Assembly (NCBI RefSeq): GCF_016861785.1 | Contig: NZ_BOLS01000008.1 | Location: 62,001 to 126,000, forward strand | Source: Lacticaseibacillus mingshuiensis | Lineage (GTDB): Bacteria > Bacillota > Bacilli > Lactobacillales > Lactobacillaceae | Direction: 5' to 3' | Length of the DNA: 64,000 bases | Shown: piece by piece, positions 20,119 through 25,377 of the stretch | Layout of the letters: each line of letters begins with the position of its first letter | Numbering within the stretch: the first letter of the stretch is position 1 | Notes under the pieces: generated by a model | Databases searched by the model: none | The model's input: the letters and a program-made list of their open reading frames with translations, nothing else | What the model was told of the DNA's origin: nothing | Program-made: the position numbers and the translations under genes

Positions 20119-20922
20119 TTAGCTCAGCAACACTGCATCGTCCACCAACGCCGTCCCACTGCGCTTTTGGAACAAGGCCAGCAGGTCCGGCACGGTCATC
20201 GATGCCTTTTCATCGCCGCGGATATCAACGGCGATCTGGCCGTGATCCAGCATGATCAAGCGGTCGCCGTATTTCAGGGCATCATTCATATCATGGGTGA
20301 TCATCAGCGTGGTGATCTTTTGGGCGGCCACCAACTGCGCAGTCAGGGCCATCACCGTTGCCGAAGTCTTCGGATCGAGCGCAGCCGTGTGCTCGTCCAG
20401 CAGCAGCAATTCCGGCGCCTTGAGTGTCGCCATCAGCAGGGTGATCGCCTGTCGCTGGCCGCCGGATAACAAGCCGATCTCGGTGTTGAGCCGAGTCTCC
20501 AGATCCAGGTTGAGACTCGCCAATTTTTCCTTGAAGAGCTTGCGGTCGCTGTGGCGCACCCCACTGCTCCAAAAATTGCGCCAGCGCCCGCGCTGCATCG
20601 CCAGGGACAGATTTTCCTCGACTGAGAGCCGCGGGGCCGTGCCGGAGCGTGGGTCCTGAAAGACTCGGGAGATCAACTTGGCACGCTTGGCGACCGGCAG
20701 ATACGTCACGTCTTCGCCTGCGATCTTGATCTGGCCGTACACGACCGGCAAGGAGCCAGCGACACTGTTGAGCAGCGTCGATTTACCGGCACCGTTACCG
20801 CCAATAATGGCAACAAACTCGCCTTCCTCAAGCGTTAAATTGATGTTGCGCAAGGCGCGCGTTTCGTTGACGGTGCCTTGTTCAAAATATTGATCGAGTT
20901 CTTTGATCTCAAGTGCTGGCAT
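20119..20922 (-). CDS. ABC transporter ATPase, predicted Phe/Tyr importer
   Basis: A 267-residue ABC ATPase with Walker A GGNGAGKST (about residues 42-50), signature LLSGGQRQAI (about 152) and Walker B LLLLDEHTAALD (about 175). It belongs with TrpX/TrpY-type systems (ABC_sub_bind lipoprotein, LivH-like permease, ATPase). It starts directly after the permease stop and ends the operon. The substrate is inferred from the Phe and Tyr leader peptides of the lipoprotein genes, not from this protein. Confidence 0.8.
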   Translation of the reverse strand: MPALEIKELDQYFEQGTVNETRALRNINLTLEEGEFVAIIGGNGAGKSTLLNSVAGSLPVVYGQIKIAGEDVTYLPVAKRAKLISRVFQDPRSGTAPRLSVEENLSLAMQRGRWRNFWSSGVRHSDRKLFKEKLASLNLDLETRLNTEIGLLSGGQRQAITLLMATLKAPELLLLDEHTAALDPKTSATVMALTAQLVAAQKITTLMITHDMNDALKYGDRLIMLDHGQIAVDIRGDEKASMTVPDLLALFQKRSGTALVDDAVLLS

Positions 20923-21831
20923 TTATTTGTCCTCCGCGATATGTTTGCGATTGGCGCGACGTTGACGAACGCCGACTGTTTCTTTCTTGATCAGCGGCAG
21001 CGCCAGGAACAAGACGAGCATCAGCGAATAGAACAGGCGCAGATAGCTCGGGTCGACGCCCATCGAAAGCACCCACGCGATGATCAGCCGGTAGATGAAC
21101 GCGCCCAGGATGATCGTCAGCAGGCGCTGGCCAAACGTCAGATGCCGCAGCAGCAGCTCCGCAATGATGATGGCGGACAGCGCGATGACCAAGGTGCCGA
21201 CCCCCATCGAGACATCGGCGTACCCGTTCATCTGCGCCATCAAGCTCCCGGACATCGCGATCAGGCCATTTGAGACCATGTAGACAATGATCTTCATATT
21301 ATCGGCATTGATGCCATTGGCCGCGCTCATCGCTTGGTTGTCGCCAACCGCCCGCGCAGACAGCCCCATCTCTGTGTGGAAAAACAGGACCAGCAGCGCG
21401 ATCACGACGGCCAGCAGGAGCCCGCCGACCACGATCACATCCAAGTCACTATTGGCAAAAGTGACCATGTTGAACACCGTCTTCACGCTGATCGGCATGT
21501 TGGCGGCGCCCTTCATCACAAAGAGGTTGACCGAATACAGACCCGTCATGGTCAAAATACCGGTGAGCAGGTCCGGAATTTTCAGCTTCGTGTGCAGCAG
21601 TCCGGAGACCAGTCCGGCCAGCGCCCCGCCGAGAAAGCCATACAGCGTGGCGATCAGCGGGTTGGTCCCACCGGCCAGCGCCCGCACTGTGATGGCGGCG
21701 CCAAAGGGAAAACTCCCTTCTGCCGTCATATCGGCAATATCCAAGATTCGAAATGTCAGATAAACGCCGATCGCCATCAGCGACCACAGCATCCCCTGCG
21801 ATAAACTTGAAACCAGTGTCTCTACGGTCAT
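20923..21831 (-). CDS. ABC transporter permease, predicted Phe/Tyr importer
   Basis: A 302-residue permease with about eight hydrophobic segments, of the LivH/BPD_transp_2 type used by TrpXYZ-like systems. The conserved MSAANGINADNMKIIVYM stretch lies about residue 170. It is followed immediately by the ATPase gene and preceded, after about 175 bases, by the Phe-leader lipoprotein gene. One permease probably serves both lipoproteins. Confidence 0.82.
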   Translation of the reverse strand: MTVETLVSSLSQGMLWSLMAIGVYLTFRILDIADMTAEGSFPFGAAITVRALAGGTNPLIATLYGFLGGALAGLVSGLLHTKLKIPDLLTGILTMTGLYSVNLFVMKGAANMPISVKTVFNMVTFANSDLDVIVVGGLLLAVVIALLVLFFHTEMGLSARAVGDNQAMSAANGINADNMKIIVYMVSNGLIAMSGSLMAQMNGYADVSMGVGTLVIALSAIIIAELLLRHLTFGQRLLTIILGAFIYRLIIAWVLSMGVDPSYLRLFYSLMLVLFLALPLIKKETVGVRQRRANRKHIAEDK

Positions 21832-22006: not shown

Positions 22007-22966
22007 TCAGTCATTTGCGACGTCCGCATCCGTCAGGCCAAACGCCTTCATCATCGTCTTGTTTTTGATCACCGAGGTCTGCGCTGGACTTTCAACAGGC
22101 AGGTCTTGAACCTTCTTGCCCTGCAGAATTTTCACGGCCATCTTCGCGGTCTGCACACCCAATTTGTAATAATCGATGCCGATGCTGGCGACCCCGCCGT
22201 CCTCGACCATCGTGGATGCCGCCGGAACGACCGGCACCTTCATCTTCAGTGACACCTTGGCGACGGTCTTCATCGCAGCCGCCACCGTGTTGTCCGTTGG
22301 CGCATACACAACATCGCAGCGGTTCATCAAGGCCTCAGTCGCCGACTGCACATCTTTGGTGCTGGCAACGGTCGTCGTTGTGACTTTCAAGCCGAGTTTT
22401 TTCACCGCGGCCTTGGCCAATTTGATCTGCACGACCGAGTTCTGCTCGGCGGCGTTATAGATCATGCCGACTGTTTTGGCTTTGGGAAAAAGACGGTGCA
22501 TGTACCCGATCTGTTCCGGGATATCCACCATGTCGATGGTACCGGTGGCGTTGCTGCTAGGATCAGCCTTTGATTTGGTCAGGTTCGCGGAAACAGGATC
22601 GGTGACCGCCGTAAAAAGCAGTGGCGTGTCGGGATCGCCTTTCTGCAGCGCCTGGGCAGCCGGCGTGGCAATCGCGAGGTTCAGATCGTTTTGATCGCTC
22701 TTGAGCCGCTGACTCATCGTCTGTAGGTTCGCCTGGTCGCCTTGCGCGTTCAGGTAATCGATCTTGATCTTGCTGCCCTTGTAGCCAGCCTGCGCCAACC
22801 CGTCCTCAAACCCCTTGCGCGCCTGGGTCAGCGCCGTCTGGTCGATCAATTGCAAAATGCCGACCTTCACCGTGTCATCCTTGGCCTGGGCCGTTTTGCT
22901 GCAGGCTGATAAACTCAGTGCGGCCACCGCCGCAACTGCCAGTGTCAAAAGCTTTGTTTTCATCAT
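22007..22966 (-). CDS. Substrate-binding lipoprotein, Phe-leader copy
   Basis: A 319-residue ABC_sub_bind (TrpX-like) lipoprotein. A signal peptide ends in LSAC with the lipidated Cys at 22. The mature part opens VKVGILQLIDQTALTQARKG. It is a close paralogue of the Tyr-leader lipoprotein at 23394-24368; long stretches such as GYKGSKIKIDY and LNLAIATPAAQAL are shared. The family binds aromatic amino acids in streptococci (tryptophan in TrpX). The upstream leader with four Phe codons suggests phenylalanine. AGGAGG lies before a double ATG; the first is taken. Confidence 0.82.
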   Translation of the reverse strand: MMKTKLLTLAVAAVAALSLSACSKTAQAKDDTVKVGILQLIDQTALTQARKGFEDGLAQAGYKGSKIKIDYLNAQGDQANLQTMSQRLKSDQNDLNLAIATPAAQALQKGDPDTPLLFTAVTDPVSANLTKSKADPSSNATGTIDMVDIPEQIGYMHRLFPKAKTVGMIYNAAEQNSVVQIKLAKAAVKKLGLKVTTTTVASTKDVQSATEALMNRCDVVYAPTDNTVAAAMKTVAKVSLKMKVPVVPAASTMVEDGGVASIGIDYYKLGVQTAKMAVKILQGKKVQDLPVESPAQTSVIKNKTMMKAFGLTDADVAND

Positions 22967-22990
22967 TTTTCCTCCTGAGAATGGCAAAAA

Positions 22991-23158
22991 GCCAGCCACT
23001 GGGGGAAATGCGCCCATGTGGCTGGCCAATTGATCTTCTTCCGGAAAAAGAAAAGGCCACATGGAACATTCCCTGTCCATGTGGCGAGTTGATTGCACTT
23101 TAATGAGTGCCGGCCATCATGGATGCAAGCCGCGGCTTGCATCCCACGATGCAAACCG
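22991..23158 (-). promoter_or_regulatory. Phe attenuator: alternative hairpins and two terminators
   Basis: Minus-strand segments in order after the leader stop: 1 GCGGTTTGCATC (23159-23148), 2 GATGCAAGCCGC (23143-23132), 3 GGCTTGCATCC and CCATGATGG (23131-23113), 4 CCACATGG (23084-23077), 5 CCATGTGG (23064-23057) followed by a T-rich run. Pairing 1:2 is near perfect, 2:3 is perfect over 11 bases, 3:4 gives nine pairs with one bulged A (antiterminator), and 4:5 is the terminator. A second hairpin with a T-run (GCCAGCCAC with GTGGCTGGC, 23025-22991) follows, just before the lipoprotein's ribosome binding site. The logic fits ribosome-mediated attenuation; it has not been tested. Confidence 0.75.
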
Positions 23159-23218
23159 CTATCCGAAAAAGCCGGCGAAAAAGTTGTGATTTAGTTGTGT
23201 TGACATTAGGTTTCTCAT
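23159..23218 (-). CDS. Phe-rich leader peptide, 19 residues
   Basis: Reads MRNLMSTQLNHNFFAGFFG and ends in TAG. AAAGGAG lies eight bases before the ATG. Four Phe codons (TTT TTC and TTT TTC at positions 13, 14, 17, 18) occur just before the stop, and the stop codon abuts RNA segment 1 of the attenuator. It aligns without gaps to the Tyr-rich leader at 24578, with F replaced by Y at each of these positions. The role is inferred to be sensing of charged tRNA-Phe. Confidence 0.8.
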   Translation of the reverse strand: MRNLMSTQLNHNFFAGFFG

Positions 23219-23259
23219 GAACAGCACTCCTTTACACCAATAGCGGTGTTCATGAATGA

Positions 23260-23288
23260 GAATAACGTGACTGTTTTCTCATGTCAAC
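23260..23288 (-). promoter_or_regulatory. Promoter of the Phe leader
   Basis: Minus-strand TTGACA (23288-23283), 17 bases, TATTCT (23265-23260). This is an internal promoter, downstream of the Tyr-leader lipoprotein gene. Confidence 0.75.
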
Positions 23289-23393
23289 CTTAACTTTGAG
23301 GAACCACACAACTTTTTCCGCAAAACTTGTTCGGTCAGGAGGAACTTTTCCAGTGCGGACGCGGGCGCCAGCGTTCGCCTCTGCCAGGAAAAA

Positions 23394-24368
23394 TTATTTG
23401 GCGGCGGCCGTCACATCGGCCTCCGTCAGGTTGAACTGGGCCATGCGCGTCTTGTTGGTGACCAGGCGAACTTTCGCCGGCGCCTCAACTGGCAACTCGG
23501 AGACCTTCTTGCCCTTGAGGATCTTGATCGCCATCTTCGCGGTCTGCCGGCCGAGGTCTTCGTAGTTGATGCCTTGCGTGGCGACCCCGGCGATCGGAAT
23601 CATCGTGGCGTCGGCGTTGATGACTGGCACCGCAAGCTTTTGGGAGATCTTGCCGATCGTTGGCATCGCCGCTGCGGCATTGTTGTCGGTCGGAATGTAG
23701 ATCGCATCCGCCTGGGCAGCCAGTGCTTCGGTCGCCTGCTGCACATCATTGGTCGTCGCCGCAGTCTTCACAACGGCGGTCAACCCCAACTTTTTGATCT
23801 CAACTTCCGCGAGTTTGATCTGGAAAACAGAATTCTGCTCCGCCGCATTGTAGAGCAACCCGATCTTCTTGGCCTTTGGAAACAGCTTGTGAGTGAAATC
23901 GATCTGGCCCTTCACATCTACCATGTCGGTGACGCCCGTCGCGTTTTTATCTGGGGCCTTCGTGTCGGTCACCAGGCCGGCCGAGGTTGGATCGGTGATC
24001 GCGGTGAACAGCAGTGGGGTCTTTGAATCGGCTTTGGCCAAGGCCTGGGCCGCCGGGGTCGCGATGGCAAGGTTCAAGTCATTCTTGTCGGCGGCGAGGC
24101 GCTGGCTCATCGACTGGAGATTTGACTGATCGCCCTGGGCATTGACGTAATCGATTTTGATCTTGCTGCCCTTGTAGCCATTTGCCGCAAGCTCTTCTTC
24201 AAAACCTTTGCGCGCATCATTCAGCGCGCTTTGATTGATCAGTTGCAGAATGCCGATCTTGACGGTGCCGTCTTTCTTGGCGGCGGTGGCGCTGCTGCTG
24301 GAGCAAGCGCCCAACACAACGGCGAGGGACAATGCGGTTAAAGTGGTCAAAAGGTGAGTTAGCTTCAT
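23394..24368 (-). CDS. Substrate-binding lipoprotein, Tyr-leader copy
   Basis: A 324-residue TrpX-like lipoprotein with signal peptide and LGAC lipobox (Cys 22), then a Ser-rich linker and VKIGILQLINQSALNDARKG. It is a paralogue of the lipoprotein at 22007-22966. Its leader carries five Tyr codons, so tyrosine is the predicted ligand. GGAGG precedes the ATG at 24368. It is first in the cluster and lacks its own permease and ATPase; it can be expressed separately because the next gene has its own promoter. Confidence 0.82.
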   Translation of the reverse strand: MKLTHLLTTLTALSLAVVLGACSSSSATAAKKDGTVKIGILQLINQSALNDARKGFEEELAANGYKGSKIKIDYVNAQGDQSNLQSMSQRLAADKNDLNLAIATPAAQALAKADSKTPLLFTAITDPTSAGLVTDTKAPDKNATGVTDMVDVKGQIDFTHKLFPKAKKIGLLYNAAEQNSVFQIKLAEVEIKKLGLTAVVKTAATTNDVQQATEALAAQADAIYIPTDNNAAAAMPTIGKISQKLAVPVINADATMIPIAGVATQGINYEDLGRQTAKMAIKILKGKKVSELPVEAPAKVRLVTNKTRMAQFNLTEADVTAAAK

Positions 24369-24405
24369 GATTTTTTCCTCCAAAAATGTCTGTGGCAACA
24401 GAAAA

Positions 24406-24577
24406 GGCCAGTTGCAAGGTTTCACCCCTGCAGCTGGCCAACAGATTCTTTCCGGAAAGAAAATGGCCACATGGGTGAAATCCTCATCCATGTGGCCTTC
24501 GTATGCATGTTAAATGCTACGACCATCATGGATGCAAACCTGCGCGCGGTTTGCATCCAATCGGCGAATGCAAGCCG
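24406..24577 (-). promoter_or_regulatory. Tyr attenuator: alternative hairpins and two terminators
   Basis: The same five-segment plan as the Phe attenuator: 1 GCGGCTTGCATTC (24578-24566), 2 GGATGCAAACCGC (24558-24546), 3 GGTTTGCATCC plus CCATGATGG (24540-24523), 4 GGCCACATGG (24497-24488), 5 CCATGTGGCC (24474-24465) and TTTTCTTT. Pairing 2:3 is perfect over 11 bases, 1:2 has one mismatch, 4:5 is perfect over ten bases, and 3:4 pairs with one bulged A. A second hairpin with TTTTC (GGCCAG with CTGGCC, 24439-24406) follows. A TTTCCGGAAAG palindrome lies between the two terminators. Confidence 0.75.
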
Positions 24578-24637
24578 CTATCCGTAATAGCCGTAGTAAT
24601 AAACGGAATTCAACTGTGTTGGTTTCATGTTTTTCAT
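24578..24637 (-). CDS. Tyr-rich leader peptide, 19 residues
   Basis: Reads MKNMKPTQLNSVYYYGYYG and ends in TAG. An in-frame ATG also lies one codon earlier (24640), but AAGGAG is better spaced for 24637 (eight bases), and this start gives the same length as the Phe leader. Five Tyr codons (TAT TAC TAC, TAT TAC) occur just before the stop. The TQLN core is shared with the Phe leader. Confidence 0.8.
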   Translation of the reverse strand: MKNMKPTQLNSVYYYGYYG

Positions 24638-24681
24638 CATCAACACTCCTTGCCATGCGCTGTTGCGCTGGTATGTGGACT

Positions 24682-24710
24682 AAGATACACGGACCTTCGC
24701 CCACTGTCAA
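24682..24710 (-). promoter_or_regulatory. Promoter of the Tyr leader
   Basis: Minus-strand TTGACA (24710-24705), 17 bases, TATCTT (24687-24682). It begins right after the stop codon of the histidine-phosphatase gene, with no terminator between. Confidence 0.75.
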
Positions 24711-24711
24711 C

Positions 24712-25377
24712 TCACTTTTTCGAATTATTTTGAATAAAATCAGACAAATCCGCGGCAGGCAGGCCCCAGAAGCGCTTTTCAAAATTTTTGCCGTCCCGTG
24801 TGACGAGTTTCGTGACGGTCGCATTTTTCACGATCTTGTGGTGGCGTAGGTCAGAAAACCGGACCCCGACCAGCGTGTTAAGTAGCAGCAAAAAGATGAT
24901 GCCGTGGCCCACGACCAGAATCTTGCCCGTCGGATAGGTCGCGCGGGCCGTCTGGATCACAGCCAGGCTCCGCGTCAAGGCGGCGCGATACGTTTCGCTG
25001 CCGATCACCGAAGCGACCTCCGCATCAAAGCGCACGGTATCGGTCATGTAGATCTCAACGCGCGCGTCATCATTGACTTCTGCGACGGTCCGGCCGTCCC
25101 ATTGACCGAGTTTCATCTCGCGCAGGCCCGCAACCGGCTGAAGCGGCGTTTGCGCGCGAAATTCATTGGCGGCCATGATCCAATTCGCGGTCGCCACCGC
25201 ACGCGGCATGCTCGAAGCCAACACCTGGGTAAACTGGACAGACGAAAGCGCCTGGCCGACTTCCTGTGCCGCGGTGACGCCAAGCGTTGTGAGCGGCGAG
25301 TCGCTGAGGCCCCCGTTGAATGCCTTACGCCGATTGATCGTGGTCTGGCCGTGTCGTACAAAATAAAATTCAGTCAT
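24712..25377 (-). CDS. Histidine phosphatase family protein (PGM-like)
   Basis: A 221-residue member of the phosphoglycerate-mutase-like superfamily. The catalytic RHG motif is at residues 8-10 (FVRHGQTTINRR) and the second His in ILVVGHGIIFLLL (about 165). It is too diverged from gpmA, also in this window at 41.5 kb, to be the glycolytic mutase and is more probably a broad-specificity phosphatase. The ATG at 25377 is chosen for AGGAGG seven bases upstream. Confidence 0.78.
   Translation of the reverse strand: MTEFYFVRHGQTTINRRKAFNGGLSDSPLTTLGVTAAQEVGQALSSVQFTQVLASSMPRAVATANWIMAANEFRAQTPLQPVAGLREMKLGQWDGRTVAEVNDDARVEIYMTDTVRFDAEVASVIGSETYRAALTRSLAVIQTARATYPTGKILVVGHGIIFLLLLNTLVGVRFSDLRHHKIVKNATVTKLVTRDGKNFEKRFWGLPAADLSDFIQNNSKK

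Follow-up and report, generated by a model that had tools for sequence, protein, structure and literature searches.

A predicted tyrosine-reading leader peptide ahead of an ABC transporter gene in Lacticaseibacillus, with phenylalanine and tryptophan counterparts

In the enterobacterial his, leu, ilv and pheA attenuators, a leader peptide with regulatory codons is combined with alternating RNA helices. Leader-peptide attenuators also precede his genes in Firmicutes, as described in the available parts of two reports (PMC2965389, PMC9413887). In Acholeplasma, the short open reading frame (ORF) uORFC-13-1 lies before aroF with a terminator adjoining it, and the available text proposes that it reads Phe (PMC8632094). 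The Streptococcus suis gene trpX, which belongs to a related transporter, is placed under a Trp T-box in the available part of another study (PMC9382623), and other lineages therefore control the Trp paralogue differently. The Rfam family RF02863 is named for the Enterococcus faecium sRNA_2410, to which it is linked by name, and the available part of the source reports two transcripts on Northern blots (PMC5593968). The gbs2033 element of S. agalactiae, stated to be conserved in Lactobacillales, has been proposed to be a riboswitch whose ligands are aromatic amino acids or their precursors; for a set of eleven new elements, to which gbs2033 apparently belongs, the parts of that paper at hand give short and long transcripts that share their start (PMC4448216).

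We describe here a 64,000-nt stretch of Lacticaseibacillus DNA, referred to as the window, whose minus strand holds in succession a promoter-like site, a 19-codon ORF, two tandem terminator hairpins and a gene for a PF04392 substrate-binding protein (SBP). A twin unit with Phe codons has the same arrangement ahead of the next SBP gene on this strand, which is followed by a permease and an ATPase gene. The 19-codon peptide is very probably a Tyr gauge that switches the transporter gene on when Tyr is short. Relatives of the element have been recorded under other headings, as an sRNA (RF02863) and, to judge from the published description, as the S. agalactiae candidate riboswitch. No description of the leader peptide was found in the open papers searched, a search outside which most of the subscription literature lies.

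Twin leaders and their genes in the window

Table 1. Features of the Tyr and Phe units, in window coordinates
Feature	Position	Strand	Observation
Promoter-like site, Tyr leader, TTGACA-17-TATCTT	24682..24710	-	10/12 consensus matches
Tyr leader peptide ORF, MKNMKPTQLNSVYYYGYYG	24578..24637	-	GGAG upstream; 19 codons then TAG
RNA segment 1	24563..24578	-	Starts on the final base of the TAG; partner 2
RNA segment 2	24546..24560	-	Partner 1 or 3
RNA segment 3	24520..24540	-	Partner 2, or 4 (antiterminator)
Terminator hairpin 1 (segments 4 + 5, U-run)	24456..24497	-	-21.0 kcal/mol in the L031 copy
Terminator hairpin 2 (segments 6 + 7, U-run)	24397..24439	-	-23.7 kcal/mol in the L031 copy
Predicted Tyr-binding ABC SBP lipoprotein (PF04392)	23394..24368	-	Asp/Tyr at two specificity positions
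Promoter-like site, Phe twin	23259..23287	-	Promoter scan
Phe leader ORF, MRNLMSTQLNHNFFAGFFG, then stop	23159..23218	-	ORF reading and conservation
Terminator hairpin 1, Phe twin	23045..23085	-	-18.0 kcal/mol (L077)
Terminator hairpin 2, Phe twin	22983..23026	-	-25.3 kcal/mol (L077)
Predicted Phe-binding SBP lipoprotein (PF04392)	22007..22966	-	Ala/Tyr at specificity positions
ABC permease (PF02653)	20923..21831	-	Pfam
ABC ATPase (PF00005)	20119..20922	-	Pfam

The features of both units are listed in Table 1. The region scanned contained 3 promoter-like sites, against 0.9 in shuffled sequence. The short ORF has the SD and the clustered codons for the regulating amino acid that are expected of a ribosome-mediated attenuator. 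A second in-frame ATG (24640) stands directly ahead of the Tyr leader start, and through it the peptide may be 20 residues long. The initial annotation had presented the two leaders as 19-codon twins that align without gaps, have TQLN and the final G in common and carry Tyr in place of F13, F14, F17 and F18, and this description holds. Ungapped, 8 of the 19 positions are identical (M1, N3, T7, Q8, L9, N10, G16 and G19); position 15 is a further difference between the twins (A vs Y). Both window SBPs pass the Pfam gathering threshold of PF04392 (229.5 and 265.1 bits vs 25.9) and miss the cut-off of 390 for the TrpX equivalog NF041285 (309.6 and 323.2 bits). The nearest named record of the window SBP, from L. 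yichunensis, is 99% identical.

PF04392 relatives are present in all 30 Lacticaseibacillus genomes sampled. Tyr-type leaders, defined as Y-only or mostly Y, occur in 30 of these 30 genomes, and this conservation rules out a chance ORF. F-only leaders were counted in 28 of the 30, namely 25 by a script that left some minus-strand loci unread or read them on the opposite strand, and three added by reading (G004, G005 and G029, which have gene fragments or an irregular tail). Across Lactobacillaceae, 58 of 64 unique leaders are pure, 32 being Y-only and 26 F-only, and 6 are mixed; the standard tail is present in 58 of the 64. Among standard-tail leaders, the second base of the four codons is A in 30/30 Y-only and T in 22/22 F-only leaders, a split that follows in part from the class definitions, and no other base separates the two classes cleanly. 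The aromatic codons switch together between the classes, and their third bases vary synonymously.

Alternative folds of the leader RNA

Five recurring segments with the same pairing in both copies and a single terminator hairpin had been proposed for this RNA. The recurring pairing is borne out, and two mutually exclusive folds both show covariation, but the segments number seven, and there are two hairpins, the second (24439..24397) being part of the chain. The L031 copy, whose last 250 bases are identical, stood in for the window Tyr copy in folding. In hairpin 2 of the Tyr copy, segment 6 may alternatively pair with segment 5; by eye, this 5:6 pairing consists of two short blocks only. Folding found all four window hairpins, none of which was listed by a simple terminator scan with a loop limit of 8 bases. 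In most Lactobacillaceae leaders, folding places a hairpin and U-rich run ~75-110 and 130-170 nt past the stop. Hairpin 1 usually lacks a qualifying U-run in Streptococcus and Enterococcus, and overall the run is present in 68 of the 89 leaders analysed, one further leader having been skipped.

Pairing between consecutive segments averages -15.2 to -26.2 kcal/mol, compared with -5.7 to -9.4 kcal/mol for shuffles. The pairs 1:4, 2:5, 1:6 and 2:7 are close to the shuffled level, and 3:6 (-12.5 vs -9.3) and 4:7 (-11.4 vs -7.1) exceed it. Cognate pairing is stronger than the mean non-cognate pairing in 65 (1:2), 73 (2:3), 49 (3:4), 77 (4:5), 62 (5:6) and 77 (6:7) of 78 cases.

Covariation was assessed in an alignment of 63 sequences, restricted to leaders whose hairpin 1 carries a U-run, and kinship was ignored in the shuffle statistics. 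The OFF fold (2:3, 4:5, 6:7) lies above shuffles on all measures, with 128 cells changed on both sides against 38.6 in shuffles, a value that 0/500 shuffles reached. The ON fold (1:2, 3:4, 5:6) has 53 such cells against 18.2 (again 0/500 as high), and it also beats all 500 shuffles on cells paired and on covariation score. The number of ON pairs with changes on both sides, 13, was reached by 10/500 shuffles, and the observed value for pair types by 29/500. When the ON fold was slid along the alignment, 18 to 39 cells were changed on both sides. Helix 3:4 has just 2 covarying pairs. The alignment points to mutually exclusive terminator and antiterminator folds in the leader, and support for the ON fold is thinner than for the OFF fold.

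The effect of ribosome position was computed by folding the ribosome-free part of the RNA, from the ribosome edge to the end of segment 4, with a footprint that we assumed to extend 13 nt past the A-site start. The mean probability of 3:4 pairing, in which segment 4 pairs upstream, is 0.71 with the ribosome on the first aromatic codon, 0.66 on a middle one, 0.34 on the last and 0.38 on the stop; the last aromatic codon thus gives stop-like pairing. Moving the ribosome from the stop to the first aromatic codon raises pairing in 87/87 leaders, the direction expected, and the shift exceeds 0.3 in 45. In the other 42 of the 87 it is 0.3 or less, and both window copies are among these, moving from first codon to stop from 0.84 to 0.60 (Tyr) and from 0.82 to 0.59 (Phe). 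Shuffling segment 1 lowers the mean 3:4 pairing to 0.44; in 84 of 88 leaders the unshuffled sequence lies above the control mean.

Relatives of the leader and the transporter pocket

Related leaders are found at loci of Lapidilactobacillus, Streptococcus and Enterococcus. At E <= 0.001, RF02863 has a match in 214 of the 395 Lactobacillales genomes sampled, with 98 above the cut-off, and in none of 14 controls. Two Enterococcus leaders, L073 and L074, reach gathering level; the window Tyr copy falls below the gathering cut-off (24.1 vs 61 bits), and an Rfam search at gathering gave no match anywhere in the window. Set against window 24594-24372, the RF02863 model starts within the last leader codons, so that most of the coding part is outside the family. 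A T-box was rejected for the window: no T-box matches at gathering, and none figures in the five hits that the interval 22950-24760 gives up to E = 1. We read 60 further regions, 55 from RF02863 matches and 5 from a pattern search, and all 60 contain an FY-rich short ORF. It leads into a PF04392 gene in 36 regions, into aromatic biosynthesis genes in 23 and into another transporter in one. The first genes of the 23 biosynthesis regions encode shikimate dehydrogenase, DAHP synthase, chorismate synthase or prephenate dehydratase. Leaders with mixed Phe and Tyr codons stand before shikimate-pathway, prephenate dehydratase and related genes in L199, L200, L203, L207, L208, L210, L229, L234 and others. 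At L228:340-3916, an FY leader lies ahead of an SBP_bac_3/permease fusion, which suggests that the leader element was recruited by another transporter family.

A comparative check for further variants, for example for Trp, had been called for, and it turned up a Trp leader in the same genome. A more distant paralogue there (L112, G000:C19:10000-15000, minus strand) is preceded by the Trp-codon leader MTNITLQLKSWQSQQ, ending in a stop, and has Val/Gln in the pocket; the Gln of this SBP sits at the Trp-specific pocket position. A family-wide pattern search loose enough for Trp codons produced many chance matches, its reversed-pattern control also giving matches, and W leaders were collected by reading upstream of the more distant paralogues. 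They are present in 19 of the 23 genus genomes in which that locus was examined; no W ORF was found at the locus of G012, G018 and G023, and G015 has a gene fragment. A set of 56 non-redundant SBPs, all with Gln but for one, includes 44 whose W leader shows an ATG, an SD and the WQ motif; three of the remaining SBPs are second genes of a locus. L140 and L145 were rejected as Trp-codon leaders, their open frames having no ATG. A helix chain comparable to that of the Tyr and Phe leaders is visible in an alignment that covers 15 of the 22 distinct W leader regions of the genus. RF04312 matches at gathering level upstream of the Trp-type SBP genes with W leaders in L268 (2587-2696, minus) and L281 (1224-1327). 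Neither the window nor L112 has a gathering-level match to it, the window Phe copy scoring 30.6 bits and the Trp copy of the same genome 25.3 bits against a cut-off of 59.

The available part of the CD0873 structure paper points to two pocket positions. At the first, Tyr-binding CD0873 has Glu-263, and Phe-binding VC_1101 and Trp-binding SP1069 have Ala; at the second, Tyr-279/Tyr-262 are set against Gln-284 in SP1069 (PMC6816091). We read both strands and, from 274 SBP ORFs, removed 42 duplicates and 2 gapped sequences, leaving 230, of which 23 are downstream in an operon and 9 are without a recognised leader. Behind Y-only leaders, the first position is Asp in 28 of 33, Thr in 4 and Ser in 1. 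It is acidic in 0 of 32 SBPs behind F-only leaders, which have Ala (27), Val (2) or Ser (3, all three from Enterococcus). Mixed leaders go with Ser in 65 of 72 (Ala 5, Phe 2), and mostly-Y leaders with Asp in 7 of 12 (Ser 3, Ala 2). At the second position, Gln occurs in 47 of 48 SBPs with W leaders, a count corrected from 48/49 by removal of a spurious L125 leader, vs 0 of 149 with F/Y leaders. The initial annotation had held that the leader codon predicts the ligand of each SBP, and the codons do track the structure-linked pocket residues, the ligands being predicted. In L249 and L250, two or three SBP genes follow in tandem behind one mixed leader; the first specificity position is Ala in the leading SBP and Thr in those after it. 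L079, L080, L107, L108 and L109 have an extra copy of the Tyr-leader SBP, which shares about half of its residues with the query and has Asp and Phe at the two specificity positions.

In a tree of 153 SBP rows, the leader classes cluster and the Asp rows form one group; a second clade, of Lapidilactobacillus and others, has Y-only leaders with Thr and F-only leaders with Val. The tree is a quick build with long-branch warnings and a smaller row set, in which some minus-strand loci are missing. Because the leader classes cluster, independent events are few, and Fisher values on the pocket counts therefore do not come from independent cases.

Proposed mechanism and comparison with known systems

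Sequence analysis shows the ORF, its conservation, two covarying folds and a match between codons and pocket. We consider it likely that the Tyr leader is a ribosome-mediated transcription attenuator reading the charging of tRNA-Tyr, and that the SBP, as predicted, binds Tyr; that the ribosome stalls, that transcription terminates, and that charged tRNA is the signal and Tyr the ligand is what we infer. With plentiful Tyr, the ribosome would reach the UAG stop and mask segment 1, so that 2:3, 4:5 and 6:7 would form and transcription would end at either of the tandem terminators. With scarce Tyr, it would stall on the Tyr codons, upstream of segment 1; 1:2, 3:4 and 5:6 would form, both terminators would be disarmed and the SBP gene would be transcribed. 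The Phe copy and the Trp copy, the latter at another place in the genome, would respond in the same way to Phe and to Trp, respectively. Attenuation is also favoured by the short transcripts of relatives, as in the two sRNA_2410 forms on Northern blots (PMC5593968, available part), and by the 24 regions read that have no PF04392 gene, 23 of which place a related leader ahead of aromatic biosynthesis genes.

The same regulatory sign would be expected if the peptide were a TnaC-like nascent-chain sensor, in which QLN and the aromatic tail in the exit tunnel sense free Tyr or Phe and not tRNA charging. QLN (24608-24616 in the window) is conserved at the amino-acid level, which tRNA reading does not need: 54 of the 67 unique leaders from Lactobacillaceae and Enterococcus carry it, its three codons vary synonymously while residues 2-6 vary freely, and it or a near form recurs in many Trp leaders. 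Standard-tail leaders, moreover, end in TAG in 54 of 58 and have GGA as the last sense codon in 53 of 58. However, the Streptococcus leaders examined lack QLN, the number of aromatic codons and their concerted switching fit tRNA reading, and GGA-TAG may be an RNA constraint because it abuts segment 1. We regard a pure nascent-chain sensor as improbable. Somewhat less doubtful, and still tentative, is a hybrid in which tRNA charging and the nascent QLN chain together gate the ribosome, the seven-segment relay disarms two terminators, and codons and pocket were rewritten together after transporter duplication, from a dual Phe/Tyr ancestor to Tyr-only and Phe-only forms.

A metabolite riboswitch for an aromatic amino acid or precursor would be in line with the published proposal for the Lactobacillales-conserved gbs2033, apparently a relative, but against it stand the conserved ORF, with codons that track the SBP pocket, and the alternating helices, which account for the conserved RNA; the word 'peptide' occurs 0 times in the text of that paper as available (PMC4448216). 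This reading seems very unlikely to us. An independent trans-acting small RNA, to which the Rfam type of RF02863 (Gene; sRNA) and the E. faecium Northern signal in the available part of its source (PMC5593968) would correspond, is harder still to credit, given the position of 59 of the 60 regions before PF04392 or aromatic biosynthesis genes, with one before another transporter, and a model that starts inside the leader codons.

If the leader is an attenuator reading tRNA charging, the Rfam 'sRNA' of those 214 Lactobacillales genomes becomes one sensor that can be read, its codons telling which amino acid is sensed, and the published candidate riboswitch probably falls under the same sensor. 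There are Tyr, Phe and Trp versions of apparently one attenuator, with matching transporter pockets. Since codons track pocket residues, the leader can aid the annotation of transporter ligands, which sequence similarity alone serves poorly. A Tyr/Phe/Trp set in one genome is also a natural test of joint change in the specificity of regulator and transporter.

Compared with the his, leu, ilv and pheA attenuators, the window element has seven segments, two terminator hairpins in phase and a presumed stall upstream of segment 1. The Acholeplasma uORFC-13-1, as far as the available text describes it, belongs to another organism group and has another motif (PMC8632094). RF02863 is catalogued as an sRNA (PMC5593968, available part); relatives such as the Enterococcus leaders match it, the window Tyr copy being below the cut-off. 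The trpB motif RF04312 is found ahead of the Trp-type SBP genes of L281 and L268, the window and L112 staying below gathering. The gbs2033 element resembles the leaders in preceding one member of a pair of paralogous ABC operons and also, as reported, E. faecium aroFBC-tyrA; it differs in being read as a metabolite riboswitch, and we equate it with the leader family by description only, from the parts of the paper at hand (PMC4448216). The T-box of S. suis trpX, in the available account, binds tRNA directly and has no leader peptide, yet it is tRNA-dependent, like the control proposed for the leaders (PMC9382623).
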